Translations under genes and position numbers: made by a program | In this document: positions 1 to 18,142 of the stretch, one piece after another | How positions within the stretch are numbered: the stretch's first letter is position 1 | How the letters are laid out: every line of letters starts with the position of its first letter | Origin: an uncultured Lachnospiraceae bacterium | Lineage (GTDB): Bacteria > Bacillota > Clostridia > Lachnospirales > Lachnospiraceae | Direction of reading: 5' to 3' | NCBI GenBank assembly: GCA_947165275.1 | Contig: CAMUZQ010000020.1 | Location: forward strand, 1-37,140 | DNA length: 37,140 nucleotides | Notes under the pieces: model-generated | The model's input: the letters and a program-made list of their open reading frames with translations, nothing else | What the model was told of the DNA's origin: nothing | Databases searched by the model: none

Positions 1-210
1 AGATATCGCCGAAATCAGCGTGCCAAAACCGCCGCGCGTAATTCGCCGTTTGACAGTCAGATCACTGCCGATACTGCTCAGCAAACTGTTCCCTTTTTTG
101 TTTTTCGTGGCTGCCTTAAGCAGTGCATTGTTTTCAATGCTCCCGCTTCCGATCCCTGGTATGCCTGCCCGCTGTGATGACTCATTCAGCATCCTTGTAG
201 TAACTCTCAT
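1..210 (-). CDS. Partial hypothetical protein, N-terminal 70 residues
   Basis: This is an open frame on the minus strand that starts at an ATG at 210 and runs off the left edge without a stop. The ribosome site AGGAGGTGGAG lies just upstream of the start, so translation from here is well supported. The product opens MRVTTRMLNESSQRAG and is rich in Ser, Asn, Lys and Gly, with no membrane segment or signal peptide in the visible part. The opening MRVTTRML resembles the first residues of flagellar hook-associated proteins and of small Clostridia proteins found near flagellar genes. That resemblance is weak and I do not assign a function. The rest of the gene is outside the window. Confidence 0.6.
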   Translation of the reverse strand, partial: MRVTTRMLNESSQRAGIPGIGSGSIENNALLKAATKNKKGNSLLSSIGSDLTVKRRITRGGFGTLISAIS

Positions 211-238
211 GATGGTCTCCACCTCCTGACATTTTTAA

Positions 239-252
239 GACGCTTTTGCGTC
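239..252 (-). terminator. Short hairpin, possible weak terminator
   Basis: GACGC-TTTT-GCGTC is a perfect 5-bp stem with a 4-base loop. It lies between the broken kinase gene and the left-edge gene. On the minus strand it is followed by TTAAAAATG, which is a poor U-tract, so this is a weak call. Confidence 0.2.
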
Positions 253-321
253 CTGCCTGTCCTCTATTTCGGCTTCCTGCGCAGGATATGAACCTTGTTT
301 TTATAAATGGGCTTTTTTATG

Positions 322-858
322 TCATGAGTGGTCAGGATACTGCATCATAGCGTCCACCGTAACGCTGTTCCCATCCTGTGAAAACACCAGCGTCCCGTAA
401 TACCTTTCGCATATTGCCAGGCTGTTTGGGATTCCCAGCCCGTGGCCGTCCTCATCGTTAGTATCAGCCACCGGGAGACACACTCCCGGATCGATCTCCA
501 GCCTGCCATGGAAAGAGTTCTTTATCTCCATAAATAGAAATCCGTTCCTTTCAGATATACGCACAGATACAAACGGAGTATCATTGTTTTGCATGGCTGC
601 ACCATGAATCGCATTATCTGCGAGATTTCCCAGAAGGACAGCTGCATCATACTGCATAACATCCGGAAGCCTCTTTATTTCTACAAATGCAGTGAAGACG
701 ATCCCAAGCCTGTCTGATACCGCTGCCTTATCATTCAGTTTTTCCGTCGGCATGGGCCCGAAGCTGTTTTCTAAAAAATATAATTGTACTATACTTGTTG
801 GAGGGGATGAAATGAAAATTCCACCTGAAATACTCGCCGTCGAAAGACCAAAAAACAC
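322..858 (-). pseudogene. Truncated GHKL sensor histidine kinase (AgrC-like C-terminus)
   Basis: The C-terminal ATPase half of a quorum-sensing type histidine kinase survives. The N-box LLGNLADNAIHGA, the phrase FLFMEIKNSF and the G-box GHGLGIPNS followed by ICERYYGTL are the order seen in GHKL (HATPase_c_5) kinases that pair with LytTR regulators. The membrane sensor domain and the dimerisation helix with the phospho-acceptor His are missing. The frame opens only with a GTG inside sequence shared with a transposase fragment, and there is no ribosome site. The family is normally about 400-450 residues; 178 remain. I infer a gene cut by insertion and later decay of a mobile element. No partner response regulator is visible. 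Confidence 0.7.
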
Positions 859-1187
859 AGTAATATATGCAAATATACCCTGCGGCTGAACATTCCCATA
901 TCCCCTGCCTGCAACCCTTTTTCACGGCTGCCATATTTGCGGACCTTTTCAAACTCGTATGTCAGGCAGACGGTAAGTCCATAAGTTCCGACTTCGTCAG
1001 GGCACATGTTTGCGGTATCTTCCATCCGCTTCAGTACCTTGTCTATTTCGGGTCGTATCCATCTGACGTCATATTGAGCTCTTGTTATGAAGTTATATGA
1101 TTCCTGAAACATCAGTGACAGGTTATCTTCCGGATAAAAGCCACAATCGCTGATCACCTCGGATTGCTGCAAACCCAGTATGTCCAA
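850..1187 (-). mobile_element. Remnant of IS4/IS1634-like DDE transposase
   Basis: The minus-strand frame reads SDCGFYPEDNLSLMF, then YNFITRAQYDVRWIRPEI, DEVGTYGLTVCLTYEFEKVR, and RRVYLHILL. This order (D-x-GF-[YF]-x-x-[DE]-N, a strand with FI, a G-x-[TS]-V stretch and an RR-x-YLH block) matches the middle of IS4/IS1634-type transposases. The N-terminal DNA-binding part and the C-terminal YREK signature are absent. The frame starts from TTG right after an in-frame stop and runs into the broken kinase in a different frame. It is therefore a dead fragment. The family call rests on pattern memory and could be a neighbouring DDE family. Confidence 0.6.
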
Positions 1188-1193
1188 CTTTAG

Positions 1194-1258
1194 CTGGACT
1201 TATTTCGGCGGCGTAAATCTTCTGCTGATGAAAGTTTGCGCCGCTGGAATTAGTCCAG
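1194..1258. repeat. 65-base imperfect palindrome
   Basis: The left arm begins CTGGACTTATTTCGGCGGCG and the right arm is close to its reverse complement, ending GGAATTAGTCCAG. About 25 bases pair on each side with a few mismatches around a loop of roughly 15 bases. It lies between the transposase remnant and the last gene of the biosynthetic operon. There is no U-tract after it on either strand, so a simple intrinsic terminator is unlikely. It may be a mobile-element end or a small palindromic repeat. Confidence 0.6.
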
Positions 1259-1286
1259 TTTATTAGGAAATGATCTACTGGATTAC

Positions 1287-2213
1287 TCAAAAACGTGCAA
1301 TCCAGTCCAGAATGCCGATCAGATCCTGAAGATACTGAAACGGATCATAAGTTTCAGCAGTCACGATCTGACTGTCCGGGATGCATCCGATCACATCCAG
1401 ATCGAGGGGTAGTTTTTCATTCAAGAGACAGAAGGCAAGCTGCAAAAACTGACGGTTGCAGTAACGGTTGCTGGTGATCGCAAGCAGGGACTCGGAAGGG
1501 CCGGGGGTTTGCAGGCCGGTTTCGCTTAAATAAAACAAAAAAGTATCTCCGGTATCAGCTCTGCGGACGGCAGGTTCTGTGGAAGGCGCGGCAAATACGC
1601 GGAAAGCACAGCCCCTTTTGCGCTCTGCGTATTCCCGGATGCAGGAGATGCGGTTCAGGTTCCGGTCTCCTTCAAACGAATCGGAAAATCCGCCTTCAGG
1701 CAGTTCAAAGGCAGAAGAGAACGCATCCGTGAGTACGCCAAACTCCGTTTCAGAAGCAGAAGAAAAAGAGGACCCTTCCCGCTCCTTCGGGTTAACCGGA
1801 CGATAGCAGGAAAGTCCGTCCACGGAGAGGGTAGACGGATCGATCCATTGCGAGGCATAGTGCGCTCTTGTGAAACAGACATTCACAGCCCCTCCCAGGA
1901 TCAGGAGACGGCTGTGTGATTTTTTTACCGGCGCATTAATATGAAAAAAACCAAGCTCTGCAAAGAGAGGGTACAGGCTCTGGCGAAGGGAGGAAAGCTC
2001 TTGTAAAGGTTCCATAACCTGCGTTTCCAGAACCCTTCCGCCATCTCTTTTGCGGCCATTATAATCTTTGGCGATCCGGTCATGGCTTGTATGAAGAAGC
2101 GAAAAAAGCTCCGCAAGCGCTTCCTGCCCTAGAAAATCTTCCATCTGTTGTTTCAGCAGAGAAAGACGCTCCCCTGCCGGGATCGATCTGTCCGGCATTA
2201 TGAATCGAAACAT
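1287..2213 (-). CDS. Unknown protein, last gene of the MurA/MurC operon
   Basis: I do not recognise a family. The 308-residue product is soluble and lacks a signal peptide. Noticeable parts are a hydrophobic strand LLILGGAVNVCFTRAHY near residue 105, which looks like a Rossmann-type beta strand, a Ser/Glu/Phe-rich middle, and a C-terminal part with ITSNRYCNRQFLQLAF, DLDVIGCIPD and a closing helix PFQYLQDLIGILDWIARF. The ribosome site GAGGG precedes the ATG at 2213. It sits 66 bases after the glycosyltransferase on the same strand, so co-transcription with the MurA/MurC operon is likely. Its job is probably accessory to that pathway, but nothing in the sequence shows an enzymatic activity. Confidence 0.7.
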   Translation of the reverse strand: MFRFIMPDRSIPAGERLSLLKQQMEDFLGQEALAELFSLLHTSHDRIAKDYNGRKRDGGRVLETQVMEPLQELSSLRQSLYPLFAELGFFHINAPVKKSHSRLLILGGAVNVCFTRAHYASQWIDPSTLSVDGLSCYRPVNPKEREGSSFSSASETEFGVLTDAFSSAFELPEGGFSDSFEGDRNLNRISCIREYAERKRGCAFRVFAAPSTEPAVRRADTGDTFLFYLSETGLQTPGPSESLLAITSNRYCNRQFLQLAFCLLNEKLPLDLDVIGCIPDSQIVTAETYDPFQYLQDLIGILDWIARF

Positions 2214-2279
2214 ATTTTTTCCCTCTATTGTAGTCTTAGCCTTTTTCTTTGTTTTCGTTTGATCCTGCCCGGGACGGCG

Positions 2280-3179
2280 TCAGATGTCCGGGTGCTCCGT
2301 TTTTCCGGCAGCGAGCGCCGCACGGATCAGCGGCAGGTTCTCTTTCTCTTCTTCGGGATGCTGCGAAAACCGGGCCATTGTCTTTTCGGCCTCTCTTGAG
2401 AGATCATAGTTTCTAAATGCTTCCCGTTCTTCATCTGTCGTTCCCTTCGACAGCTTAAAGAAGCAATCCATCTTTGCCTGATGAAGGCTCATCACCCGGC
2501 GGAAGTATCCCGGAATATGTCGGGAGGACATGGACGATAAGCTGCGCTGCATATATTTCAGCATGACAGGCGAAGAGGTGGAAACCGCGCCGCATCCTTC
2601 CAGAAAACGGTAGTTAAACAGGCGGTCTTCCCCGAAATCCGTCTGCTCGTCAAAACGAAGATGGAGCGCTTCGATTACGCTCCTCCTGTAAAATTTGTTG
2701 CAGTTGGAATAGATCAGCAGCCTGCGCGTCCGGATGTAGTCGTCCGCAAAGGAGGAAACATCCGGGTAGTCCTTATCCTCAAGAAACTGCACAGAGCCTG
2801 TGCCGTCAAGCAGAACGCGCTCAATGCCAAAAATATACAGGTCCGACCCTTTTTCCAGAAGCGGAAGGCTCTTTTCAAGAAAGCCTTCCTGGAGACAGTC
2901 ATCACAGTCCACAAAGGCCGCGAACCCTCCTTTTGCAGCATCAAGCCCTGCGTTCCTGGCGCCGGAAGCACCGCGATGCGCCGCGTAAAGAATATGCAGA
3001 TTCTCCCTTGTCCCTTCATAGGAAGCGAGGAGTTCCCTTGTGCCATCTTCCGAGCCGTCATCGACCACGATCAGCTCGCAGTTGGAAGGAAGCTGAAGGA
3101 GGACCGAGTCCAGGCACTGCGCAAGACAGGCTTCGCAGTTATAGGTCGGAACGATCACGGAGAGCAAAATGTTTTTCAT
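2280..3179 (-). CDS. Family 2 glycosyltransferase
   Basis: This is a GT-A fold, inverting, nucleotide-sugar dependent glycosyltransferase acting at the cytoplasmic face. Visible motifs are VIVPTYN at residues 9-14, VVDDGSEDGT at 38-47, the GASGARNAGLDAA loop at 70-82, the metal-binding DCDD at 91-94 and a late FGEDRLFNYRF that supplies the catalytic-base region. At 299 residues it has the usual size of a single-domain GT2 and has no membrane segments. I chose the ATG at 3179 because GGAG lies seven bases upstream. An ATG five codons earlier overlaps the MurA stop and lacks a ribosome site. It would add a sugar to, or polymerise, the product of the adjacent MurA/MurC steps. The acceptor is unknown. 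Confidence 0.9.
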   Translation of the reverse strand: MKNILLSVIVPTYNCEACLAQCLDSVLLQLPSNCELIVVDDGSEDGTRELLASYEGTRENLHILYAAHRGASGARNAGLDAAKGGFAAFVDCDDCLQEGFLEKSLPLLEKGSDLYIFGIERVLLDGTGSVQFLEDKDYPDVSSFADDYIRTRRLLIYSNCNKFYRRSVIEALHLRFDEQTDFGEDRLFNYRFLEGCGAVSTSSPVMLKYMQRSLSSMSSRHIPGYFRRVMSLHQAKMDCFFKLSKGTTDEEREAFRNYDLSREAEKTMARFSQHPEEEKENLPLIRAALAAGKTEHPDI

Positions 3180-3190
3180 ATGCCGGCTCC

Positions 3191-4447
3191 TCATTCTGCG
3201 TGGATGTCCGCTCCCAGTTTTGACAGTTTGCCGACAATGTCCTGATAGCCCCTTTCAATGAGCCGGACATTGCGGATCTCGGTTCTTCCTCTTGCCGCAA
3301 GAGCCGCGATTATCATTGCGGCACCGGCTCTCAGATCACAGGCTGTCAGAGAAGCCCCGTTCAGTTCTCCTCCGCGGATCACGGCATGCTGACCGTTAAT
3401 ATCGCTCAAGGCGCCCATGCGTCTTAATTCTTCCAGATAGCGGAACCGGTCGGTCCAGACTGCTTCGTATATGGAGCTGCTCCCGTCTGCAAGACACATA
3501 AGTGCGCCGATCTGCGGCTGCATATCCGTTGGAAATCCGGGGTAGGCAGCAGTGATGATATCAGTGCTTTTGAGCCTGCCGTTTCTTGTTACCTGAACGG
3601 ACCCGTCCCCTTCCTTCACTGAGACATTCATGTCTTTCAGAACATCAGCGATGCAGGAAAGATGCTCCGGTATCACATTACAGATTTTAACCGAACCGCC
3701 TGCGGCCGCAGCCGCAGCCATATAGGTGCCGGCTTCGATCTGATCGGGGATCAGGGAATATTCGCCGCCATGCATGGAGGAAACCCCATGAATTGTGATC
3801 GTGTCCGTACCGGCACCGCTGATATCCCCGCCCATCGCATTGATGAATCCTGCCAGATCGACAATGTGTGGTTCCCGTGCGGCATTCCGGAGCATGGTGT
3901 CACCGTCCGCAAGGGCAGCGGCCAGCATCAGATTCATGGTGGCGCCGACCGTCACCATGTCAAAGCATATGTCTGCCCCGTGGAGTTTTTTGCCTTCCGG
4001 GATTGTTACACGGATATAGTTGTCATAAAGCTGCACAGCAGCCCCCATTGCCTCAAACCCTTTCAGATGCTGATCAATGGGGCGTTTGCCAAGATCGCAG
4101 CCGCCGGGAAGCGGCGATGAAGCGTCTCCTGTGCGGGCAAGCAGAGCCCCTAAAAAGAAATGGGATGCGCGCATCCGCACGCCAAGCTCCGCAGGAACTG
4201 CGTGGCTTTCGATCCTCCGGCAATCGATCTCCAGAACAGAGCGGTCAATATGCCGGTGCGTTACGCCCAGAGAATCCAATATGTCCAGCGTAAGCCGCAC
4301 GTCATGGATATCGGGTACATTGCGGATCCGGCAGATGCCTTCAACCAGTAAAGTTCCGGGAAGAATGGAGGCCGCAGCGTTTTTAGCTCCGCTGATCGTA
4401 ACCTCTCCGAAGAGTTCTCTTCCGCCATTGATCACATATTTTTCCAT
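3191..4447 (-). CDS. murA: UDP-N-acetylglucosamine 1-carboxyvinyltransferase (MurA), cluster copy
   Basis: MurA transfers enolpyruvate from PEP to UDP-GlcNAc, the first committed step towards UDP-MurNAc, in the cytoplasm. The 418-residue length is typical. The family hallmarks are present: SGAKNA with Lys22, the catalytic-loop motif PGGCDLGKRPID with Cys117, and the YPGFPTDMQPQ segment with its Asp. The Cys means a fosfomycin-sensitive type. It lies 34 bases after the PP-loop/MurC fusion and 11 bases before the glycosyltransferase, so it is inside a specialised operon and not in a division/cell-wall cluster. Firmicutes often have two MurA paralogues. This copy is probably the dedicated one for the cluster product, but it could also serve normal peptidoglycan synthesis. 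Confidence 0.93.
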   Translation of the reverse strand: MEKYVINGGRELFGEVTISGAKNAAASILPGTLLVEGICRIRNVPDIHDVRLTLDILDSLGVTHRHIDRSVLEIDCRRIESHAVPAELGVRMRASHFFLGALLARTGDASSPLPGGCDLGKRPIDQHLKGFEAMGAAVQLYDNYIRVTIPEGKKLHGADICFDMVTVGATMNLMLAAALADGDTMLRNAAREPHIVDLAGFINAMGGDISGAGTDTITIHGVSSMHGGEYSLIPDQIEAGTYMAAAAAAGGSVKICNVIPEHLSCIADVLKDMNVSVKEGDGSVQVTRNGRLKSTDIITAAYPGFPTDMQPQIGALMCLADGSSSIYEAVWTDRFRYLEELRRMGALSDINGQHAVIRGGELNGASLTACDLRAGAAMIIAALAARGRTEIRNVRLIERGYQDIVGKLSKLGADIHAE

Positions 4448-4481
4448 ATATCAGCCCCTGCCCGGTCGTTTCAAGACCGTT

Positions 4482-6959
4482 TTATGCATTCCCCTTCTCT
4501 TCAAGCATTTCGTTCAGCATATAGATATTGCCGCAGCCAAGAGTGATCACAAGATCCCCTTCTTTCAGATGTTCTCTCAGCATCTTCGCGGCATCTTCAA
4601 ACGCAGGCGTCAGCCTTGCGTCAATACCGTTTTGACGCATGCCATCGACAAGCATGCCGGAGGTGATATCGCCGGGATCATCTTCCCTGGCCGCAAAGAT
4701 ATCGGTGAGCAGAACGACATCTGCCGCTTTTGCGCAGGTCAGATAATCCGCGAACAGGGTTCTGACCCGGCTGAAGGTGTGAGGCTGGATCACCGCCCAC
4801 AAACGTCCGCTGCGGCAGCGCTTTCGCGCGATGCAGATCGCGTTTTTCATCTCTTCCGGATTATGTCCATAGTCATGGAAAAGTTCCGCGCCCTGCAGCA
4901 TTCCTGTTTTTTCAAAACGCCGGTGCGCGCCGCGAAACCTTCTTATACTGTCTGCCGCCGCATTCATATCAGTGCCAAGGTGATGAGCCGCCGCAAGGGC
5001 GGCAAGGGCGTTCATCGCATTGAACATGCCCGGAACGCCGGTGTGAACGGTGCAGAGCAGTTTTGTCCCGTAGTACATTTGAAACGTGACATAGCCGTTT
5101 TCATCCTCTGAAGCCCCCGCCATCCGGTAGCTGCAGCCTTCCTTTGTACCGAATGTCTCTGTTCGGCAGGGAAGAGCAGCCATCTGCCTGACCACTCTTT
5201 CATTGTCCCCGTTTCCGAGTGCCCAGCCGTCTTCTGGAAGTTTCCTCAGAAAGTCTCCGAAAGCGCTCTCAATTTCATCGATATCGCGGTAGTAGTCCAG
5301 ATGATCCGCGTCAATATTTAAGAGCAGCGCACAGGTGGCGTGAACATTCATAAAATTCCGGCGGTATTCGCAGGCCTCAGTTAAAAAGAGCTCGTTTCCG
5401 CCGGAACGGACGCTTCCGCCGATCGCATCCAGAACGCCGCCGATATGTACCGTTGGATCCTGCCCTGCCTCCACTAAAATCTGTGTGAGCATGGAGGTCA
5501 CGGTTGTTTTTCCATGCGTTCCGCACACGGCAAAAGAACGTTCAAATTCCTCAGACAGCTGGCCAAGGAGGACAGAGCGTTCAATGACGGGGATGCCTTT
5601 TTTTCTTGCCGCCTTTAGCTCCACATGATCATATGGGATTGCCATGGAATAAACGATCAGATCTGCGCCGTCAACATTTTTTGCGCTGTGTCCCGCGGTT
5701 ACGCAAATCCCTTTTTCCCGAAGCAGGCGCATGCTGTCGCCGTCGATCCTGTCCGAACCGGTCACCGTAAAGCCGCGGTCTTTCAGAAGGAGCGCGATCC
5801 CGCACATACTCGCGCCGCCAATCCCGATCATATGTACGTGTTTTCCGGCAAAAGCGTGAAAGTCTGGTGGGTCCGGAAGATAAGGGCTCTTTCTGTACAG
5901 CGCATTCAGCTTTTCTTTTTTGTCATCCAGACGATGCTTCTCCAGCAGCTCGAGCATTTTGTAATAGCTGCCCCGGTTCTTTTCCGCCTCTTCTTCCAGG
6001 ATACGAAGGGCTTCTTCCCTTGTTGCGAGACCATACCGGACCATCGCGGCCATTCGGAAATCCATTTCCGTATATCCCAGAAGTCCGTAATAAAAGGCAT
6101 CCTTGATATCTTCAATATCGCAGTCAAAGTGCCAGCTCCGGTTTGTTTTTTTCCAGCCGTATTTTTCCCTGACGAACGCTTCAACAAAGTCCGGATCATT
6201 TTCAAAATAGGCATCAAAATCAAACAGCTGAATGTTTTCTCCGGCCTTCATCTGCCGGTTCGCGGTGTTGTTGCTCTTATATTTGAGATGATGGTCACGT
6301 TCAATAACCATCAGATTATCCTCATAGTCAATCGCAGGATAGTCCTTGAGCAGCCGGCGAAGGCCGTCATCAAGATCGCCTTCCGGCGAGCAGGCGGCGA
6401 TCAGTTCTTCTTTGAAAGGGGCAAGCTCCAGATAGGAAGCGCCGCTGAAATATTTGTGAATGCCATTTTTCAGGCCAAGTTCATAAAGATTCAGCGTGAT
6501 CCCGTACCTGCAGCCGGCACATAAAAGCACCCGTACCATTTCGGGGCGGGGATCATCCAAAAAGATGCCCAGATTCCTGCAAAATCTATTATATGCCGCA
6601 TCATCCCGGTGCACAAGCAGCTGTGTTCCCAGAAGTTTCTGTGTCTTTCGTACATTCTCCATGGCAATCTCATTGGTGATCTCCGGCCGGTAAAAACAGA
6701 ATGCGGTGACACGGTCTGCACCGAGCATTTCTGTAAGTTTTATCCACATATAGATGCTGTCTTTGCCTCCGCTCACCGTGACTCCGACTTTTTCTCCGGG
6801 CGAAAGGGAAAGATCCGCGATCAGACGGTCTGCGCCCTTAAACGTTTTCTTCTGAAAATTGCGGCAATACTTACATATGCCATTTTCATCAAGCTCCGCA
6901 AACCGGTAAGCTGCCGTAAGGCCGCAATGCTTGCATCTTTCTGCAGTTTCCAGTTTCAT
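4482..6959 (-). CDS. murC: Fusion of PP-loop N-acyl-sugar amidotransferase-like ATPase and MurC ligase
   Basis: Two enzymes are joined in 825 residues. The N-terminal part (about 1-365) has zinc-type pairs CKHC (9-12) and CKYC (29-32), the PP-loop SGGKDS (63-68) and a CAGC pair (147-150). This layout is that of WbpG/PseA-type N-acetyl-sugar amidotransferases, which adenylate a carbonyl and replace its oxygen with nitrogen. The C-terminal part (about 369-825) is a complete MurC, the UDP-MurNAc:L-amino acid ligase. It shows the IGIGGASMCGIA nucleotide fold, P-loop GTHGKTT (480-486), EACEYRRNFM, NIDADHLDYY, HDYGHNPEEM and IQPHTFSRV. The usual HHP is HNP here. GAGGGAG precedes the ATG at 6959. 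The PP-loop assignment is firm as a fold and tentative as a reaction. No glutaminase partner is seen in the window. Confidence 0.92.
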   Translation of the reverse strand: MKLETAERCKHCGLTAAYRFAELDENGICKYCRNFQKKTFKGADRLIADLSLSPGEKVGVTVSGGKDSIYMWIKLTEMLGADRVTAFCFYRPEITNEIAMENVRKTQKLLGTQLLVHRDDAAYNRFCRNLGIFLDDPRPEMVRVLLCAGCRYGITLNLYELGLKNGIHKYFSGASYLELAPFKEELIAACSPEGDLDDGLRRLLKDYPAIDYEDNLMVIERDHHLKYKSNNTANRQMKAGENIQLFDFDAYFENDPDFVEAFVREKYGWKKTNRSWHFDCDIEDIKDAFYYGLLGYTEMDFRMAAMVRYGLATREEALRILEEEAEKNRGSYYKMLELLEKHRLDDKKEKLNALYRKSPYLPDPPDFHAFAGKHVHMIGIGGASMCGIALLLKDRGFTVTGSDRIDGDSMRLLREKGICVTAGHSAKNVDGADLIVYSMAIPYDHVELKAARKKGIPVIERSVLLGQLSEEFERSFAVCGTHGKTTVTSMLTQILVEAGQDPTVHIGGVLDAIGGSVRSGGNELFLTEACEYRRNFMNVHATCALLLNIDADHLDYYRDIDEIESAFGDFLRKLPEDGWALGNGDNERVVRQMAALPCRTETFGTKEGCSYRMAGASEDENGYVTFQMYYGTKLLCTVHTGVPGMFNAMNALAALAAAHHLGTDMNAAADSIRRFRGAHRRFEKTGMLQGAELFHDYGHNPEEMKNAICIARKRCRSGRLWAVIQPHTFSRVRTLFADYLTCAKAADVVLLTDIFAAREDDPGDITSGMLVDGMRQNGIDARLTPAFEDAAKMLREHLKEGDLVITLGCGNIYMLNEMLEEKGNA

Positions 6960-6973
6960 AAAATCTCCCTCTT

Positions 6974-8080
6974 TCAGATCATATCTTTATAGGATCCCGC
7001 ACTGTCAGGAATCGGGATCAGATCGCAGACCATTTCCTCTGTCTGCCTTCCGTAAGGGTGTACCATACCCGAAATCGCATATCGGTATCCTTTTTCCCGC
7101 ATGGCCTTGAGAGCAGTGATCTCCAAAGCTCTCGCAATCCCGCCATGGGATCTTGCGGAAGGGATCACACCCATAGGACCCAGAAAATTCTTCGCAGGAG
7201 TCTCGATTGCGTAGAATCCGAGGATCTCCCGGTTCTTAACCGCGACATAGCAATCTCCGCGGATCAGGGAGGGAAGGGATTCGTCTGCCCACGATAGCGC
7301 AAAATTATCCTTGATAAAATCATAGACTTTTGAAATGTTCATCGGCATCACGCGCTTGATCTCAATTCCCCCGGCCTCAAGATTTTGGAAGAGCTCAGGA
7401 TCCTCATGGATCCCATAGAGCTTGAGCAGCAGGTCTGGCGCTTCCGGATGCCGGGCCGGATCCACCTTCAGATAGGCTTCCGCAAAGCGTGTGTTTTCAT
7501 GCCTGAACAGTTGTGCTGCCCGAAACGCATTCAGCGACAGGATGATCTCTTCCTGCGTGTGCTGATCTTCGTGAAAACGGATCAGTTTTTGTTTTTTTTC
7601 AATGATATCGGTGATATCAGCAAAATGCGTTGGTTTATGGAACGGAGCGAAAATCTCATAGGAATAGCATGCGGCTTTTGCCTTCTGGGAGCGGATGGCT
7701 TCAATGCAATAGGCTGTCGCATGCCGGTGATCAGGATGGAGGCTTTCCAGCCAGGGCAGAAAGATCACCGTATAGGGCGTAAAGTCGATTTTGCGCACAG
7801 CTTCGGGATGAAGTGACAGCTTTGTATCTTCGATGCCGAGCCAGGTGAAGGCATGGGGCTTTACAAAGTCCATTTCCGCTTCGAACTGCTTTTTCCGGAT
7901 GAGGGCTTCCTCTTCAATCGGCATTTCGGGGTTTCCATGGCTTCCGTCTGTCAGCACAAACACATCGGTCTGATCCGGAGCAAGAAGGAGCGGGGCAGAG
8001 GCACCGAGGCATTCATCGTCCGGATGCGGCGCGATCACCGCGATCCTGTCATCCTTTGAAAATATAAGCTCATGTATCAT
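6974..8080 (-). CDS. PIG-L/LmbE deacetylase fused to GNAT acyltransferase
   Basis: Residues 1 to about 210 are a zinc-dependent PIG-L/LmbE N-acetyl-sugar deacetylase: the metal motif HPDDECLG is at 19-26, the second metal His pair HPDH at 115-118, and an R-x-x-Q-F-x-A-E helix lies between them. Residues about 238-368 are a GNAT acyltransferase with the acyl-CoA loop R-SHGGIARAL at 310-319 after the strand GPMGVIP. Such a fusion would remove an N-acetyl group and put on another acyl group, that is, edit the amide of an amino sugar. The start at 8080 has GGGGAG upstream. It is 18 bases behind the acyl carrier protein and 14 bases ahead of the PP-loop/MurC gene, which suggests an ACP-borne acyl donor. 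The exact substrate is inferred. Confidence 0.88.
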   Translation of the reverse strand: MIHELIFSKDDRIAVIAPHPDDECLGASAPLLLAPDQTDVFVLTDGSHGNPEMPIEEEALIRKKQFEAEMDFVKPHAFTWLGIEDTKLSLHPEAVRKIDFTPYTVIFLPWLESLHPDHRHATAYCIEAIRSQKAKAACYSYEIFAPFHKPTHFADITDIIEKKQKLIRFHEDQHTQEEIILSLNAFRAAQLFRHENTRFAEAYLKVDPARHPEAPDLLLKLYGIHEDPELFQNLEAGGIEIKRVMPMNISKVYDFIKDNFALSWADESLPSLIRGDCYVAVKNREILGFYAIETPAKNFLGPMGVIPSARSHGGIARALEITALKAMREKGYRYAISGMVHPYGRQTEEMVCDLIPIPDSAGSYKDMI

Positions 8081-8098
8081 TGTGTTTTCTCCCCGTTT

Positions 8099-8323
8099 TC
8101 ATTCAGATAGTCTGGTGATCAGTTTCCAGATCGATTCTGCGGAATTAAAATTTTCGGCTGTCAGATATTTGGGCCCTATCTCAACATCCAGTTCCATTTG
8201 GATCGCGTCTATGATGGCGATCATATCTATGGAGCTTAGCACCCCTCCGGATATCAGCTGCGTTTCGGTTTGAAAGTCCACATCCGGCCGGATTTCTTCC
8301 AGCAATTCCATCAGTTTCTGCAT
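8099..8323 (-). CDS. Acyl carrier protein, DltC-like size
   Basis: A 74-residue four-helix carrier protein of the PP-binding family. The phosphopantetheine site reads GGVLSSIDM, so Ser31 is the expected attachment residue. The Asp that normally precedes it is replaced by Ser30, which is unusual. The distal part ELDVEIGPKYLTAENFNSAESIWKLI matches the helix 3 and 4 pattern of stand-alone carriers such as DltC. AAGGAGA lies nine bases upstream of the ATG. It is the second gene of the operon, between the flippase and the deacetylase/acyltransferase. It could hold an acyl group for that GNAT domain or an aminoacyl group for a ligase. No adenylating enzyme for loading is visible in the window. Confidence 0.85.
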   Translation of the reverse strand: MQKLMELLEEIRPDVDFQTETQLISGGVLSSIDMIAIIDAIQMELDVEIGPKYLTAENFNSAESIWKLITRLSE

Positions 8324-8339
8324 AGATGATCTTCTCCTT

Positions 8340-10118
8340 TTATTTTTTTGCCTTGTTCTTAAAAGTGAAAGTGGTGTAGTTCAGATTCAGCACATACTGG
8401 TAGTTGACCTGATCGGCCAGTTTTTTGATGAGGTTATAATTGTCCGTGATCAGGGCCTCTTTCTGTGTATCCTGGTCCAGCGCGATGCATTGGCCGCTAT
8501 CCAAAGTCGCAAAAACCGCATTGTTTTTATCCAGAAAACGGATCAGGATCACCGCGGAGGTCACGTCATCCTGATCTCGGAAACCTGTCTTTGACACAAG
8601 CGAATTGGCTGATCTTACATAGGCCACCATTTCTTCGACACACAAGGCGATCTTATAGGAAATTCTCGGGCTGATCCCTTTTTCATCCGCGAAACGGCGG
8701 ATATGTCTAGATGCCTCCACAGCATCCTCGGGTTTTACAGACAGATAAAGCACGATCGTGTTTCGGTCAAGGGATTCTTCACTCAGCATCAGCTTGCGGT
8801 ACCGCATAATGAACAGCATCAAAATGATCAGTTCACTTACAGCGTAGGAAATATAAACAAATGGTCCCGGCGTGATGAGTGAAATGAGGAACGCAAAAAC
8901 AGGAACCAGCGCATTGCCTCCGAGGGTAAGCGCGGTTGTGAAGCGAATATCTTCTTTAACGCTCAGATACAGCCGGAAGAGGAAGCTGAGTCCCCGGAAA
9001 ATAAAGAGGATCGAAAATATGCGAAGGCAGGCGAAGCCTTCCTGCGGAATCTCCCTGATCCCGTTAATGGAAAAGACAAGTCCCGGGAGCAGCTCAAAAA
9101 GAAGGGTGACAGTGCCTATGATCAGGAACACAAACACGGCTCCCTGCCGGAGGATCTCTTTTACAGCCATTGTGTCCTTTGCTCCAACAAACAGTCCCAT
9201 CAAAGGCCTCAAGCCGGACTGTATGCCAAGGATCAAGACATTGGCTAAGTTCAGACAGAAAGAAACAGACCCATTGATCACTCCGCCGTCCATTCCGAAT
9301 ATGTTCATTACGATCCGGAGAACAATATAATTCTGTACTGCGCTGATGATCGGAAAGGCAGCGTCCGGGAGACCGCATTTGAGAATGCTGCCGAAGAGGC
9401 GGGGATCAGGCCTGAGGTCGCGGGTTTTGTAAAAATCTGTTTTTTTCCAGAGATAAATGACTGTTGAGGAGCATCGGATAAGATTTGCGGCTAAGGTGCC
9501 AAAGCCGGTTCCGGCAACGCCCAAATGAAAAACTGCAACAAAGAGCAGGTCAAAAGCAAGATTTGCAAGGGCTTCAGTGATCGTAAGCGTCATCAGGACT
9601 TTCATTCTCCCCGCGACCTGAAGCTGCAAAGTTCCCACTGTCGATATCAGGGAGAACGGGGCGCTCAGCATAGAGCCGATGGCATACTGCCAAATCATGT
9701 GATGCATGTCCGGAGACAGTCCATAAGAGTTTATGATGATAATGTTAATGGGGATCTGAATGAGTCCCACAAGCAGCGCCATTCCGATCATAATATAAAA
9801 GGAAGCCCCTTTGATCTTTGAGACAGCCTTGGTGTCATTGCGGCCTACGGCAGTCGAAATGCTTGTTGAGATCCCGCAGGCGGCAATCGTTGAGAATGCG
9901 CCAATAAAAACTGAGATAGGAAAGAAAATGTTTATGGAGGAGAACGCCTCTTTTCCGACAAAGTTTCCTGCGATGATCCCGTCCACGGAGGAGATCAGAA
10001 GCACGGAAAGATTTGTAATGATCATGATCGGAATATATTCAAAAAGCTTGCACCTGACAAGTTCCTCCTCCCCCAAGTTTCGTTTATATTTTTCCAATCC
10101 TTTTTCAGTAGTGTTCAT
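8340..10118 (-). CDS. MATE-family exporter fused to GHKL-like ATPase domain
   Basis: Residues 1 to about 450 carry about twelve membrane segments of the MATE/MOP-flippase type, with the opening IPIMIITNLSVLLISSVDGIIAG and an internal repeat. MATE and MOP members export drugs or flip lipid-linked glycans. The last 140 or so residues are soluble and resemble a serine-kinase/anti-sigma type GHKL domain: strand ...NTIVLYLSV, helix YKIALCVEEMVAYV where the N-box would be, and a C-terminal NLNYTTFTF strand. The Asn of the N-box is not present, so ATP binding may be lost. It is the first gene after a strong promoter. In this operon the natural role is export of the finished glycan product. The role of the tail is unknown. 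Confidence 0.85.
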   Translation of the reverse strand: MNTTEKGLEKYKRNLGEEELVRCKLFEYIPIMIITNLSVLLISSVDGIIAGNFVGKEAFSSINIFFPISVFIGAFSTIAACGISTSISTAVGRNDTKAVSKIKGASFYIMIGMALLVGLIQIPINIIIINSYGLSPDMHHMIWQYAIGSMLSAPFSLISTVGTLQLQVAGRMKVLMTLTITEALANLAFDLLFVAVFHLGVAGTGFGTLAANLIRCSSTVIYLWKKTDFYKTRDLRPDPRLFGSILKCGLPDAAFPIISAVQNYIVLRIVMNIFGMDGGVINGSVSFCLNLANVLILGIQSGLRPLMGLFVGAKDTMAVKEILRQGAVFVFLIIGTVTLLFELLPGLVFSINGIREIPQEGFACLRIFSILFIFRGLSFLFRLYLSVKEDIRFTTALTLGGNALVPVFAFLISLITPGPFVYISYAVSELIILMLFIMRYRKLMLSEESLDRNTIVLYLSVKPEDAVEASRHIRRFADEKGISPRISYKIALCVEEMVAYVRSANSLVSKTGFRDQDDVTSAVILIRFLDKNNAVFATLDSGQCIALDQDTQKEALITDNYNLIKKLADQVNYQYVLNLNYTTFTFKNKAKK

Positions 10119-10150
10119 ATACTTCGAGAATCTCCTGTCTGTTGAAATTC

Positions 10151-10179
10151 TTGAAAAAACACAATTAGTTTATTATACT
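10151..10179 (+). promoter_or_regulatory. Sigma-A promoter of the ATP-grasp gene
   Basis: TTGAAA (10151-10156) and TATACT (10174-10179) are separated by 17 bases on the plus strand. Transcription would start near 10186 and give a leader of about 140 bases before the ATG at 10325. Confidence 0.75.
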
Positions 10180-10200
10180 CTTAAGAAAAATTGAAGTCAA
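10172..10200 (-). promoter_or_regulatory. Sigma-A promoter of the MurA/MurC operon
   Basis: On the minus strand TTGACT (10200-10195) and TATAAT (10177-10172) are separated by exactly 17 bases. This is close to consensus and drives the seven-gene operon that starts at 10118. The -10 box overlaps that of the divergent promoter. Confidence 0.8.
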
Positions 10201-10243
10201 CAAGGATGCTGAAAAACCAATACAGCTCCACGGGCCTGAATTT

Positions 10244-10296
10244 ACAGGCTCTCCCGCTCCTCAAAGACTTTTTTAATTCATCGCGGGGGAGCCTGT
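10244..10296 (+). promoter_or_regulatory. Leader hairpin before the ATP-grasp gene
   Basis: ACAGGCTCTCCCGC (10244-10257) pairs with GCGGGGGAGCCTGT (10283-10296) over 14 positions with one T/G wobble, around a 25-base loop that contains TTTTTT. No U-tract follows, so it is not a normal terminator. It lies in the untranslated leader, about 28 bases before the start codon, and could affect mRNA stability or translation. Confidence 0.55.
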
Positions 10297-10324
10297 ACAA
10301 TAGCGGGAAGAGGAGGAGGAGGTT

Positions 10325-11479
10325 ATGAGTTCTTTTGAGGCAGAATATCAGGATGCATATAAAAAAGTAATTGCCATAAAAAAAGAGTATTTCACACATA
10401 TGCTGGAAGAATATAATCAGAAGCTGCTTGAAAAAGTGGAGAACGGCGGCTGGAAGAAAAGCGAACAAAGCGAGGCATATCGCACGGCGGTGCTTCCCTA
10501 TTGGAAACCGTTCGGATATGTTCCAAAACAGTTCTGGTTTGAGCTGAACGGTTCGAGAGAGAAGCAAATGAACCCGCGTCTGATCCCCTCGGATCTTTAT
10601 TATAATGAGCTCCTTCCCTATCTGAATAATCTTCCGTTTCGCTATGCGCTGCAGGACAAGTGTTTTCTGGATATGAAATTTCCGGACGTATTGCAGGCTG
10701 TTACGGTCGTGCGCAGAATTGCCGGTACATACTTTGACCCGCGGATGAATGTGATCACGGAACAGGAAGCGCTTGCGCTCTGCAGGTCTTGTGAAACAGA
10801 TATTTTCATCAAACCATCGCTGTATACGGGATCGGGAGCCGGGATCAGCAGGCTCCGGCCGTCGGAATGTACGGCAGAAGCGGTTTCGGCACTGTTTGAG
10901 AAAACCGGAGCGAATTTCATCGTGCAGGAGAAGATCGCACAGCACGCAACGCTTGCGAAACTGAATCCAGACTCGGTCTGTACCATCCGTGTGCTTTCTC
11001 TTTTTTGGAAAGAGGAGGTCACGATTCCCCACACCATGATCCGTGTAGGGCTTCCTGGTTCTGCCTGCGTTTCCGACAATGGGGGGTATTGCGCAGAAAT
11101 TCTTCCGGATGGATGCCTGCATCCGAAAGCCTTTCGGGATGAAGAAAACTGGTTTGACGCGAAGGCGGAAGGACTCTATGATGATTCTCTGATTATTCCG
11201 AATATGGACAGGATCAGGGAAATCGTCCGGAAAATCCATCCCCGCATGAGCCATTTTAAATGGATTGGCTGGGATTTCACGCTGGATGAAAACGGCAATG
11301 CATTGCTGATCGAATTCAACACAGCACCCGGAGATGATGTGCAGCGAGTCTGTGCACGTCCTTTATTTGACGGAAAAACGGATGAGGTATTACAAGATTT
11401 CTTTTTTGATCGTTCGCTCGAAGGCAGCCAGCTTCCAAACTGCCGCTGCTTAAGCAGCGAGATCCGGAGGTATCTGTAA
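10325..11479 (+). CDS. Sugar-transfer-associated ATP-grasp ligase
   Basis: A 384-residue ATP-grasp enzyme of the type found beside glycan-assembly genes (ATPgrasp_ST). Visible parts are FIKPSLYTGSGAG at 161-173 with the ATP-binding Lys163, FIVQEKIAQHATLAKLNP at 198-215 with the adenine-contacting stretch, SVCTIRV, and the magnesium-binding block GWDFTLDENGNALLIEFN with Glu330 and Asn332. ATP-grasp ligases join a carboxylate, through an acyl phosphate, to an amine or thiol. A very strong ribosome site GAGGAGGAGGAGG precedes the ATG. It is transcribed away from the MurA/MurC operon from an overlapping promoter. I infer that it adds an amino acid or similar group to the cluster product. The substrate is not visible. 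Confidence 0.88.
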   Translation: MSSFEAEYQDAYKKVIAIKKEYFTHMLEEYNQKLLEKVENGGWKKSEQSEAYRTAVLPYWKPFGYVPKQFWFELNGSREKQMNPRLIPSDLYYNELLPYLNNLPFRYALQDKCFLDMKFPDVLQAVTVVRRIAGTYFDPRMNVITEQEALALCRSCETDIFIKPSLYTGSGAGISRLRPSECTAEAVSALFEKTGANFIVQEKIAQHATLAKLNPDSVCTIRVLSLFWKEEVTIPHTMIRVGLPGSACVSDNGGYCAEILPDGCLHPKAFRDEENWFDAKAEGLYDDSLIIPNMDRIREIVRKIHPRMSHFKWIGWDFTLDENGNALLIEFNTAPGDDVQRVCARPLFDGKTDEVLQDFFFDRSLEGSQLPNCRCLSSEIRRYL

Positions 11480-11489
11480 GGAACTGTTC

Positions 11490-11632
11490 CATCATTGTTG
11501 TCGGCGCAAGGATCACGCAGTTCACGCCCTGTGCTTTCAGCCGGCTGTAGAGTGAGTACCCCAGGCATCCGGCCTCGTACCCGCATACGAAGTCGAAGCC
11601 ATCGCCGAGCTCCTTCTTCAGATTATTTTTTC
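11490..11632 (-). mobile_element. IS110-family transposase remnant
   Basis: The minus-strand frame encodes about 45 residues ending in a stretch typical of the DEDD catalytic domain of IS110 transposases: DFVCGYEAGCLGYSLY, then RLKAQGVNCVILAPTTM. The frame is closed upstream by a stop and loses similarity at the end of the ATP-grasp gene, whose stop codon is ten bases away. Only a small inner piece of a roughly 400-residue protein remains. It marks an old insertion or recombination point at the right border of the biosynthetic island. Confidence 0.78.
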
Positions 11633-11873
11633 ACCATCAGTGTTCTCCCATCCCAACAAATTCGGGAATATGTTCATTCAGTTAAAACGTAGTTCCTGAT
11701 ATTAGATGTCTAATTTCTTTGATATCTGATTCTATATAATGCAAAGTTGTATCAGGTATGTTTGGTATTAGTTTACATACATTTTTACGTACGTCTTTGT
11801 GTGTAAATACGTAAATATCAGTGGTTATTAGTGGTTATGAATGTATTCCACCACTTATCTGAAAGTAAAAGAA
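11633..11873. other. AT-rich spacer without genes
   Basis: No ORF with a ribosome site is visible here. The stretch contains an inverted pair TTTACGTA (11784-11791) and TACGTAAA (11808-11815) with a 16-base gap, and a short tandem repeat of GTGGTTAT near 11820-11838. I see no promoter that would serve a neighbouring gene. Confidence 0.4.
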
Positions 11874-11912
11874 AAGCCCGTAAACACCGCAAATATAGTG
11901 TTTTTCGGGCTT
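11874..11912 (-). terminator. Terminator after tRNA-Trp
   Basis: AAGCCCG-TAAACAC and GTGTTTTT-CGGGCTT form a strong hairpin. On the minus strand it follows the tRNA by two bases and is followed by a T-rich run (CTTTTCTTTT), as expected for an intrinsic terminator. Confidence 0.75.
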
Positions 11913-11913
11913 A

Positions 11914-11985
11914 CAGGGGAAGAGGGATTCGAACCCCCATGAGCGGTTTTGGAGACCGCCAGGCTAGCCATTGCATCATTCCCCT
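11914..11985 (-). tRNA. tRNA-Trp (anticodon CCA)
   Basis: On the minus strand the acceptor stem AGGGGAA pairs with TTCCCCT, with G as discriminator. The anticodon arm GCGGT-CTCCAAA-ACCGC gives the anticodon CCA for the codon UGG. The T arm is GGGGG-TTCGAAT-CCC-type with a normal TTCGAAT loop. The D stem (ATGC/GCCT) has one mismatch. The 3' CCA is not encoded. A terminator follows directly. Its 3' end faces the biosynthetic island, which is the side where tRNA-targeting integrases insert. Confidence 0.88.
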
Positions 11986-12048
11986 TTGTATGCGCGTTCA
12001 TACCCATCTATTTTACTCATAAGTGCCCCTGAGGTCAAGAAAAAAAAA

Positions 12049-12168
12049 TCAATTCATTATATGCTCCTTTATTCCCATGACCACCTGGTCTCCTGTTTTA
12101 TCCGGAAACAGTTTTTTTACAAGATCCCGCACCGCCTGAAGATGATATCTGCCTTCAGAATCCGCCAT
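12049..12168 (-). CDS. Small 39-residue ORF after the arabinofuranosidase
   Basis: The frame starts with ATG two bases after the stop of the GH51 gene and encodes a 39-residue, Lys/Asp-rich product beginning MADSEGRYHLQAVRDLVKKL. A GAG in the end of the upstream gene could act as a weak ribosome site and the tight spacing suggests translational coupling. The peptide looks amphipathic and helical. An eight-T run follows the stop. It could be a true small gene at the end of the arabinan operon or the N-terminal relic of a lost gene. No family is recognised. Confidence 0.4.
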   Translation of the reverse strand: MADSEGRYHLQAVRDLVKKLFPDKTGDQVVMGIKEHIMN

Positions 12169-12170
12169 GA

Positions 12171-13682
12171 TTACTCTTTTTTTACTCTTATCTCAACCAC
12201 ACTGCCTCTGGGAAGCGAAAGCCTTATATCATTTTCCTCGGTACTGTATCCGGTAAATTCCGTTTCCTGTACCTTATCAGGCGCATCGAATGTGTTCATA
12301 TCATGTACATCGCTGCCCGTGACAATATTGGCTTCCGCTATCTTATAAAGCTTATCCTCTGAAAAATGAATCGTCAGGTCCTGACTTTCCGTAACAGAAA
12401 GATTATTTACCGTAATAGTGATGACCCCGTCCTTTTCCGATACGGACTCTGTTATCCCGGGTACTGTCCATTCACCTGTTCCGACCTCACCTTCACCTGT
12501 AAGAGAGCTCTCAAGGAGCTCTGCACCCTGATGGTGCCTGTACATATGAAATACATGCCAGGTAGGTGTCTTGACCATCCTTTCGCCCTCGGTCAGTATA
12601 ACCGCCTGAAGCACATTTACCATCTGTGCTATACATGCCATCTTCACACGGTCGCAGTGCTTATTGAAAACATTCAGGGAGATTCCCGCCACAAGAGCAT
12701 CCCTGACTGTGCTCTGCTGATAAAGGAATCCGGGATTCGTACCGGGCTCCACCGTATACCATGTGCCCCACTCGTCCACAGACAGTCCGATTTTCTTTTC
12801 CGGATCGTACTGGTCTATTATAGCGCTGTGCCGGCGGATAAGCTCGTCAATATACAATGCCTTATTCAATGTTCTGTACCATGCTTCATCATCATATTCT
12901 GTAGCGCTTCCTTTTATTTCCCAGCCGTCAGGATGAGTGTAATAATGAAGCGAGATGAAATCCATGAAGCCGTGGAACTGTTCCGGCACATGATCAAAGC
13001 AGGTTTTCATGACACCCTCAGTCCAGAAATAATCTGCAACATTTGCGCCGCAGGCAACCTTCTTTATCAGATGATCCTCATTATACTGTCTCACATAAGT
13101 CTGATAACGGCGATACTCATTTGCGTAATGCTCGGGCGTCATATTTCCGCCGCAGCCCCAGTTTTCGTTTCCGACGCCGAAGAAATCCACCCTCCAGGGC
13201 TCTTCGTGACCGTTTGCCTTACGGAGATCCGCCATGGGCGATACCCCCTTGAAGGTCATATATTCCACCCATTCAGACATTTCCTGAACCGTACCGCTTC
13301 CGAGATTTCCGTTCACATAGGTCTTGCAGCCTATCTGACGACAGAGCTCCATGAACTCATGCGTTCCGAAGCTGTTATCTTCAGTCACACCACCCCAGTG
13401 GGTATTGATCATCTTCTTCCTTCCGCTCTTCTCTCCGATCCCGTCCTTCCAGTGATACTCATCGGCAAAGCACCCTCCCGGCCATCTGAGTACAGGAACT
13501 TTTATCTCCTTAAGCGCGTTTACGACATCCGATCTCATCCCGTTTACATTTGGTATATCCGAACCCTCCCCCACGTAGAGTCCTTCATATATACATCTTC
13601 CCAGATGCTCCGAAAAGTGCCCGTAGATCTCAGGCTCTATCCTTCCGAGTTTCTTTGCTTCATTGATCACAAGCTTTGCCAT
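12171..13682 (-). CDS. Alpha-L-arabinofuranosidase, GH51
   Basis: This cytoplasmic retaining enzyme releases terminal arabinofuranose from arabino-oligosaccharides. The 503-residue length fits GH51. The TIM barrel carries the acid/base Glu173 in [11 protein letters not shown] and the nucleophile Glu304 in [23 protein letters not shown] is a family signature, and a beta-sandwich closes the protein. No signal peptide is present. I chose the ATG at 13682 because GGAGG lies just upstream. A start 15 codons earlier would overlap the preceding gene and lacks such a site. It is the last enzyme gene of the arabinan operon and follows two GH43 genes, so it would finish the oligomers that the transporter imports. 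Confidence 0.95.
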
Positions 13683-13696
13683 TTTCAAATACCTCC

Positions 13697-15223: not shown

Positions 15224-15249
15224 TTGTTTCCTCTGGTCTGCCTGTACTG

Positions 15250-16203: not shown

Positions 16204-16227
16204 ATCCTGATCTCCTTCAGTCTGCTT

Positions 16228-18029: not shown

Positions 18030-18092
18030 CTTTCATTACCCCTTTTCGCATGACGTCCCTGCGTCGTAAAACAATCCATCTTTTTTGAAAAC

Positions 18093-18116
18093 AGGGGCTG
18101 TCTTCCGACAGCCCCT
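18093..18116 (-). terminator. Intercistronic hairpin after the binding-protein gene
   Basis: AGGGGCTGTC and GACAGCCCCT form a perfect 10-bp stem with a four-base loop. On the minus strand it is followed by GTTTTC, a weak U-tract. Its place between the binding protein and the permeases fits partial termination or 3'-end protection, which would give more binding protein than permease. Confidence 0.7.
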
Positions 18117-18142
18117 ATGAAGGTTTAACCTGCTCCCGAGTA

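Follow-up and report, generated by a model that had tools for sequence, protein, structure and literature searches.

In butirosin synthesis an acyl carrier protein (ACP), BtrI, is charged by the ATP-grasp enzyme BtrJ. The family of the N-acetyl sugar amidotransferase WbuX (model TIGR03573), of which we take WbpG and PseA to be members, is presumably marked by the motifs CxxC...CxxC and SGGKDS. In the literature, BtrJ-like enzymes are named as ATP-grasp enzymes (PMC4431377); MurC1 and MurC2 of Frankia are both regarded as enzymes of peptidoglycan synthesis, with one taking the place of the other (PMC7231273); the protein of the structures 5KGA and 5KF1 is named GlmA, a glucosamine N-acetyltransferase (PMC10936415); and fungal RmNag, in which GNAT and GH3 parts form one protein, has shown glucosamine N-acetyltransferase activity (PMC4680927). 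We compare these systems with an operon found in 37,140 nucleotides of an uncultured Lachnospiraceae bacterium (assembly GCA_947165275.1, contig CAMUZQ010000020.1, positions 1 to 37,140; hereafter the window), which carries a second MurA, a second MurC fused to a PP-loop ATPase, and genes for sugar editing and export. We give a probability of about 0.42 to the reading of it as a rare mosaic operon in which the opening steps of peptidoglycan precursor synthesis have been borrowed for a small exported amino-sugar conjugate, not for the cell wall.

Seven intact open reading frames (ORFs) run on the minus strand from 10118 to 1287 as a tight operon. From the promoter side they encode a MATE exporter with an HATPase-like domain, an ACP, a PIG-L-GNAT protein, the PP-loop-MurC fusion, MurA, a family 2 glycosyltransferase (GT2), and a 308-aa protein, with intergenic gaps of 16, 18, 14, 34, -4, and 66 bases. 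A divergent ATP-grasp gene on the plus strand begins 206 bases from the operon, and all eight genes (8/8) have intact reading frames. Every gene named in the earlier note on this DNA, including the divergent ATP-grasp gene, is present where it was placed; that list lacked the seventh gene (1287-2213) and the C-terminal HATPase-like domain of the MATE protein. As the earlier note also held, this is not a standard peptidoglycan gene set, since MurD-F, MraY, and MurG are missing among the operon proteins (Pfam and NCBIfam).

The MurA and MurC of the operon (hereafter MurA2 and MurC2) had been proposed to be second copies, with the possibility in mind that the genome might hold no others. We find one further copy of each outside the window, a housekeeping murC (474 bits) and a housekeeping murA (543 bits), both above the curated cut-offs, which excludes that possibility. 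MurA2 exceeds the cut-off of TIGR01072 and falls under that of the narrower model PRK12830 (509.9 vs. 552 bits). Aligned with the solved MurA chain 6cn1, it keeps the Cys, Lys-Asn, Asp, and Arg motifs to which we assign the usual catalytic roles: C117, within GGCDLGKRP, aligns with GGCAIGSRP of 6cn1, and GAKNA, FPTDMQ, and RGY are retained. Its identity to 12 other MurAs is 47.7-50.6%, and none of the second MurAs listed is >51% identical to it. Second MurAs are common: about 143 of the 348 family genomes, this one included, have two matches at E ≤ 1e-60 (counted by hand, twice), so we rejected a second MurA alone as a telling sign.

The second MurC is far rarer. MurC matches at E ≤ 1e-60 occur in 336 of the 348 family genomes and two matches in only two of them, this genome and G979 (G, L, and C numbers are our labels for genomes, loci, and contigs), a count that scored at most four candidates per genome and could miss a weak second copy. 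The MurC domain occupies residues 374-818 of the fusion (TIGR01082, 405.2 bits vs. a cut-off of 335.1). It is 59% identical to the second MurC of G979 and only 36-44% identical to 24 housekeeping MurCs, whereas the housekeeping copy of this genome reaches 52-63% identity with the other 23. These 24 are not a random sample; they comprise the genome's own copy, the genus and family copies scoring best against the window MurC, and copies from the genus of G979. In a MurC tree the two second copies form a clade with 100/100 support, separated from the other 24 by ∼4.3 changes per column (2.42 + 1.9 about the midpoint root), with the caveat that G979 MurC2 and the housekeeping MurC of this genome were flagged as long rows.

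The two second copies have in common a set of changes (T533R, N534R, H646F, K685T, H700N, A809C, D811N, and G816N, in fusion numbering) at positions that are invariant in 24/24 housekeeping MurCs. Two motifs are altered by them, EACEYTN to EACEYRR (T533R, N534R) and DYAHHP to DYGHNP (H700N), while the ATP-site motif GTHGKTT is kept. In the Haemophilus influenzae MurC structures, L-alanine is held by the Tyr and the first His of DYGHH and by the His and the last Arg of QPH..SR.R; in the alignment these residues are presumably all kept in the window MurC. The RR change lies, we assume, on the sugar side. On this view we read MurC2 as a probable amino-acid ligase with an altered sugar-side substrate.

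MurC2 is joined in a single frame to a PP-loop ATPase that has no Pfam match and matches the WbuX model over residues 8-333 (E = 1.7e-13). Cysteines C9, C12, C29, and C32 and the motif SGG[K/R]DS are common to all of the aligned PP-loop proteins (6/6); a further CxxC (147-150) is present in the window protein and in those of G082 and G131 and absent from three with a glutaminase-like start. Among genus, family, order, and phylum genome sets, which overlap, close relatives are lacking. The PP-loop half matches 5/299 family genomes at E ≤ 1e-5, namely this genome and four with distant, partial matches (25-35% identity), two of which (L011 and L013) begin like class II glutaminases by reading, and two of which (L012 and L014) adjoin ACP-like genes. 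At the level of the order only this genome matches (1/392, E ≤ 1e-10); in the phylum the matches are this genome and G928, with a glutaminase-like start (2/299, E ≤ 1e-8); and the three chosen genomes G979, G233, and G280 have none (0/3, E ≤ 0.001). The whole fusion (residues 1-825) is matched in 1/48 genus genomes, its own, and in the other 47 the matches begin at residue 352 at the earliest, in or next to the MurC half. Scans for close relatives with exact 8-residue patterns of one protein, an insensitive method, gave 49 fitting stretches in the genome contig collection and nine in viral contigs, none of which was confirmed, and a plasmid scan gave two Agrobacterium records with 22% identity. 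The fusion thus occurs in one genome only among those searched.

In G082 and G131, PP-loop proteins that align with that of the window (20-23% identity) have ACP-like genes and activating enzymes as neighbors. From these neighbors, action of the window PP-loop domain on an ACP-bound group appears at least as likely as action on a Mur substrate. The G082 row (L127:3650-9861) contains a PP-loop protein, an adenylation domain, a formyltransferase, an ACP, an MBOAT protein, and a GDSL/DUF1574 protein (below cut-off), and is perhaps a pathway by which a surface glycan is acylated with an amino acid bearing a formyl or amidino modification. The G131 row (L012:129-3379) contains two ACP-like proteins, an aminoacyl-tRNA-synthetase-like protein (tRNA-synt_2b, Pfam), a PP-loop protein, and a GNAT-like protein; both ACPs and the GNAT protein were called by reading, and one ACP also by tblastn.

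The PIG-L half of the sugar-editing protein is above its Pfam cut-off (PF02585, 43.2 vs. 28.2 bits), and the metal-type motifs PHPDDE and HPDHR are intact in the five PIG-L proteins compared (5/5). Four PDB sequences match it at E values of 1.6e-12 to 1.1e-9, and the third and fourth of these bear the name diacetylchitobiose deacetylase (E ∼ 1e-9). The GNAT half is under the PF00583 cut-off (16.7 vs. 20.7 bits), which its 41% identical homolog at L034 exceeds (23.9 bits). A four-sequence GNAT profile searched against the PDB places one tandem GNAT protein at the top over its whole chain, 5KGA (1.2e-4) and 5KF1 (1.3e-4), and two distant GNAT relatives, in G024 and on a Rhizobium plasmid, adjoin GH3 hydrolases. 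An AlphaFold2 model of the protein is good only in parts of PIG-L. With a deacetylase-like PIG-L, a GNAT part that weakly resembles GlmA, and distant GNAT relatives paired with GH3 as in RmNag, the protein is best read as a candidate N-acyl exchanger on a hexosamine. The N-acyl editor of the earlier note therefore agrees with the nearest solved relatives, diacetylchitobiose deacetylases and, weakly, GlmA. The adjoining ACP suggests that the new N-acyl group would not be acetyl. This ACP is under its cut-offs (23.3 vs. 72 bits in NCBIfam; PP-binding PF00550, 13.9 vs. 20.8) and is 47% identical to a small protein of the G082 operon that has the adenylation domain; its candidate phosphopantetheine serine, S31, is kept in 3/3 aligned proteins, the G082 counterpart reading GGILDSFDM.

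Parts of the operon recur elsewhere without the Mur genes. The PIG-L-GNAT query matches 5/250 family genomes at E ≤ 1e-10: this genome; G233, where the match is full-length (50%); G112 and G011, where it covers PIG-L alone; and G024, where it covers GNAT alone. The G233 locus (L034, ∼9 kb) encodes an AMP-dependent ligase fused to a STAS domain, a PIG-L-GNAT protein, a gene read as ComEC-like, a GT2-DUF218 fusion (L034:7889-9355) whose GT2 half shares 57% identity with the window GT2, and a MATE-HATPase protein (L034:9406-11139) with 40% end-to-end identity to the window MATE. MATE followed by GT2 is an order common to both loci. Queries with MurA, MurC, PP-loop, and ACP find nothing in 20 kb of the G233 locus (E ≤ 1e-6). 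Because MATE, GT2, and PIG-L-GNAT occur there without Mur genes, the Mur genes seem to have been added to a core that is separate from them. In the same G233 locus the STAS-ligase (L034:2312-4219) lies near the MATE-HATPase protein; STAS and HATPase are modules of the anti-sigma type, here joined to an enzyme and a transporter.

A collection scan with a two-sequence PIG-L-GNAT alignment found at least 268 places encoding a relative, of which 80 were kept. Among the matches listed, three are close PIG-L relatives (59-67% identity, partial), two labeled Lachnospiraceae (L046 and L048) and one labeled Clostridiales (L047). In L046 a PIG-L with 68% identity comes after a MATE-HATPase gene, and STAS is encoded as a protein of its own; L047 has a MATE-HATPase protein at 24% identity to the window MATE, a 65% identical PIG-L, an M15 peptidase, and a transglycosylase; and L048 has the PIG-L with no match to the other operon genes. 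In L047 (1870-5853, a RUG11951 contig) the position of PIG-L beside the peptidase and transglycosylase hints at action on cell-wall material. The G979 locus (L140) has an unfused MurC2 and, upstream, remnants of a GT2 of the same family in two frames with the middle missing; no MurA, PIG-L, or PP-loop match is found in this 20-kb stretch (for PIG-L the search of G979 covered this stretch only), and the genome has one MurA match only. Travel of the gene set as a unit finds no support: in the other genomes searched the PP-loop half is found only as distant homologs, and in 20 kb of G233 the core lacks MurA, MurC, and PP-loop.

We take the operon to be a core that probably activates an acid, replaces the acyl group on the nitrogen of an amino sugar, transfers a glycosyl unit, and exports the product, with an added muramyl-type branch (MurA2, MurC2, and the PP-loop domain). 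We infer the following reactions, order, and product from gene content and conserved motifs. MurA2, to judge from its catalytic motifs, would add an enolpyruvyl ether to UDP-N-acetylglucosamine or a close analog, and the enolpyruvyl group would be reduced by the housekeeping MurB, which we assume to serve here, or be left unreduced. The MurC2 domain would then ligate an amino acid to the resulting carboxylate, its altered sugar-side pocket presumably admitting a changed substrate. In the least certain step, suggested by similarity to WbuX, the PP-loop domain may use ATP to activate a carbonyl, either on that same substrate or on an ACP-bound group, so as to amidate or amidinate it. PIG-L would remove the N-acetyl group of the hexosamine, and GNAT would add another acyl or aminoacyl group, probably delivered by the ACP. 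The ATP-grasp enzyme may either charge the ACP, as BtrJ does, or add a further amino acid. Finally, GT2 would add a sugar and MATE would export the product.

Several observations weigh against this scheme. The PP-loop half scores well under the TIGR03573 cut-off (50.7 vs. 203.2 bits), and no ammonia partner of the HisH/HisF or glutaminase type is present among the operon proteins in Pfam and NCBIfam searches, which did not extend to the rest of the genome. Since the fusion is found once, conservation cannot show that all of the genes belong to one pathway, and G233 keeps the core with no Mur genes in the same 20 kb. The operon has no murB and no adenylating enzyme of its own for the ACP. For the sugar-editing part, the two best PDB matches of PIG-L are labeled uncharacterized, the GNAT and ACP assignments are based on weak scores, and the GlmA match has no single significant stretch (best i-Evalue 0.73, mostly the CoA-binding motif). 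A link between GNAT and the ACP is only putative, as RmNag uses acetyl-CoA (PMC4680927).

That both extra enzymes come from the first part of one pathway could also be explained by self-resistance: the operon would make an antibiotic against MurA and MurC, with MurA2 and MurC2 as insensitive spare targets that let the producer survive. Feglymycin, a natural peptide, is reported to inhibit both enzymes (PMC10745416), the operon contains a MATE exporter, and the MurC2 changes may include pocket residues. We consider this explanation rather unlikely, as MurC2 is fused to a PP-loop enzyme, differs at many invariant positions, more than resistance should need, and is kept in G979 beside a broken GT2 and with a single MurA. 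We would put no higher the idea that, under stress or during sporulation, MurA2, MurC2, and PIG-L-GNAT supply the wall itself with a UDP-muramyl precursor that has been de-N-acetylated or re-acylated. The PIG-L of L047 beside the peptidase and transglycosylase, the frequency of second MurAs in the family, and the two MurCs of some Frankia strains (PMC7231273) are consistent with it; yet GT2, MATE, and ACP have no obvious place in such a route, MurD-F, MraY, and MurG are not among the operon proteins, and a wall pathway should be more widespread than a MurC2 found in two of 348 genomes.

The operon might instead decorate a surface polysaccharide, so that a capsule or teichoic-type glycan would take up an activated sugar, lactyl or muramyl, that carries an unusual N-acyl group; we regard this as quite improbable. 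GT2 and ATPgrasp_ST, the latter associated with sugar transfer, would suit a glycan locus, a WbuX family protein occurs among exopolysaccharide pathway genes (PMC11340318), and the ACP, PP-loop, and MBOAT set of G082 is probably of the glycan-acylation kind. The operon has a single glycosyltransferase, however, and no polymerase, lipid-carrier sugar transferase, or chain-length regulator is found among the operon proteins in Pfam and NCBIfam. A decaying or chance assembly beside the tRNA-Trp gene, of genes without joint function, would account for a fusion seen once, for the degraded G979 remnant, for the adjoining tRNA, and for the uneven GC content, which ranges from 45.8% in ACP up to 55.0% in MurA, with MurA and GT2 (53.2%) higher than the ten genes measured on the right flank (45.0-49.9%). 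Eight intact frames, gaps of 14-66 bases with one 4-base overlap, and the company of MATE, GT2, and PIG-L-GNAT in G233 make this the least probable of the explanations, and a very improbable one. The exported conjugate remains our preferred reading.

The coordinates of the operon and its promoter-like site are given in the table below. The site ends 53 bases ahead of the MATE start, and transcription from one promoter, as the earlier note proposed, is plausible on this account; the scanned region is, however, no richer in such sites than shuffled sequence (10 found vs. a mean of 12.6). The C-terminal 143 aa of the MATE protein resemble HATPase_c_2 (E = 0.005, 17.3 bits, below the cut-off of 27.4). 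The 308-aa protein has no match in Pfam, NCBIfam, PHROGs, or PADLOC, and its AlphaFold2 model is unusable (predicted local distance difference test score, 37); its identification as DUF218, an idea taken from the G233 GT2-DUF218 fusion, found no support (BLASTP best E = 2.3, hhalign probability 0.1).

Features of the operon and its surroundings in the window (strand relative to the window; scores in bits against model cut-offs)
Feature	Coordinates	Strand	Evidence
308-aa protein of unknown family, last operon gene	1287..2213	-	ORF only
Family 2 glycosyltransferase, 304 aa	2280..3194	-	Glycos_transf_2 PF00535, 117.6 vs. 23.3
Second MurA, 418 aa	3191..4447	-	TIGR01072, 498 vs. 392.7
PP-loop ATPase (1-370) + MurC (371-825), single 825-aa ORF	4482..6959	-	TIGR03573 below cut-off; TIGR01082 above
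PIG-L deacetylase (about 1-195) + GNAT acyltransferase (about 200-368)	6974..8080	-	PIG-L above cut-off
Acyl carrier protein, 74 aa	8099..8323	-	Candidate serine in GGVLSSIDM
MATE exporter + C-terminal HATPase_c_2-like domain, 592 aa	8340..10118	-	MatE, 65.1 vs. 24.9
Promoter-like site	10172..10200	-	TTGACT-17-TATAAT, 11/12 consensus matches
Sugar-transfer-associated ATP-grasp ligase, 384 aa	10325..11479	+	ATPgrasp_ST PF14397, 84.2 vs. 31.4

The host assembly comprises 2.88 Mb in 153 contigs and is 96% complete. Defense-system models (PADLOC) match none of the six of eight proteins searched. In PHROGs, where five of the eight were searched, three have no match, and the fusion (E = 2.8e-4) and PIG-L-GNAT (E = 5.5e-9) match families of unknown function. 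No direct repeat of the tRNA-Trp end is present in 1-12100 (seed 12, length 14). A possible IS110-like transposase remnant at 11487-11624, suggested by reading, consists of 46 aa with no Pfam match and is not claimed, and matches to neurotoxin chains at E = 0.17 and 0.21 were set aside as chance matches. On one side of the operon, at 322-1187, a GHKL ATPase fragment (HATPase_c_5, 49.7 bits) follows an ORF that lies in a different frame; no membrane part is visible, and the two may be a broken sensor kinase. On the other side (11914-19588) the tRNA-Trp gene next to the ATP-grasp gene is followed by a cluster for arabinan or xylan use, with an arabinofuranosidase, two GH43 enzymes, and ABC transporter parts. 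Elsewhere in the genome (contig C137, L043:3305-3613) a small ORF resembles, by reading only, a Nif11-type leader peptide and lies near a phosphatase-like, STAS, and HATPase regulatory set.

The operon is real and unusual, and the PP-loop-MurC fusion and the diverged MurC2 are notable, although the single occurrence limits what can be claimed. From the earlier interpretation we retain the second copies, the non-standard peptidoglycan set, and the N-acyl editor, and give up the travel of the genes as a unit. We found no such pathway, operon, or PP-loop-MurC fusion in the open-access literature (titles and beginnings of abstracts, preprints excluded). The more specific idea that an extra MurA and MurC were recruited outside wall synthesis to make an exported muramyl-type conjugate with an exchanged N-acyl group, and that the fusion activates two carbonyls on one substrate, is doubtful, if less so than any of the alternatives above. 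If it holds, the start of the peptidoglycan pathway would also be a source of exported small molecules, and in a PP-loop-Mur ligase fusion the activation of carbonyls would be paired in a new way with the ligation of amino acids. Animal innate immunity senses muramyl compounds, which would matter here should the host be a gut bacterium. Were self-resistance the true explanation, the operon would be a lead to a compound that inhibits MurA and MurC.

Compared with the early peptidoglycan pathway, the operon has a MurA and a MurC that exceed the TIGR01072 and TIGR01082 cut-offs with their main catalytic motifs kept; in contrast, both are second copies, the MurC is fused and changed, and MurB, MurD-F, MraY, and MurG are missing. 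The nearest literature case is Frankia, also with two divergent MurC copies in one genome, although the abstract of that paper mentions neither a fusion nor an operon with sugar-editing genes (PMC7231273). The PP-loop domain has the four cysteines and the SGGKDS motif of WbuX, but it is below the family cut-off, is fused to MurC, and lacks HisH/HisF partners in the operon. Among PDB proteins GlmA (5KF1) fits the GNAT profile best, if weakly, and the distant GNAT relatives beside GH3 recall the RmNag fusion, whereas the window GNAT is fused to PIG-L beside an ACP, which suggests exchange rather than simple acetylation. In the butirosin side-chain pathway the likeness is one of ACP, ATP-grasp, and group transfer to an amino sugar, except that transfer here would be by GNAT, with ACP loading by ATP-grasp assumed. 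The core locus of G233 differs in its STAS-AMP ligase, in the DUF218 part on its GT2, and in having no MurA, MurC, PP-loop, or ACP match in 20 kb, and it shares with the window PIG-L-GNAT, GT2, and MATE-HATPase.

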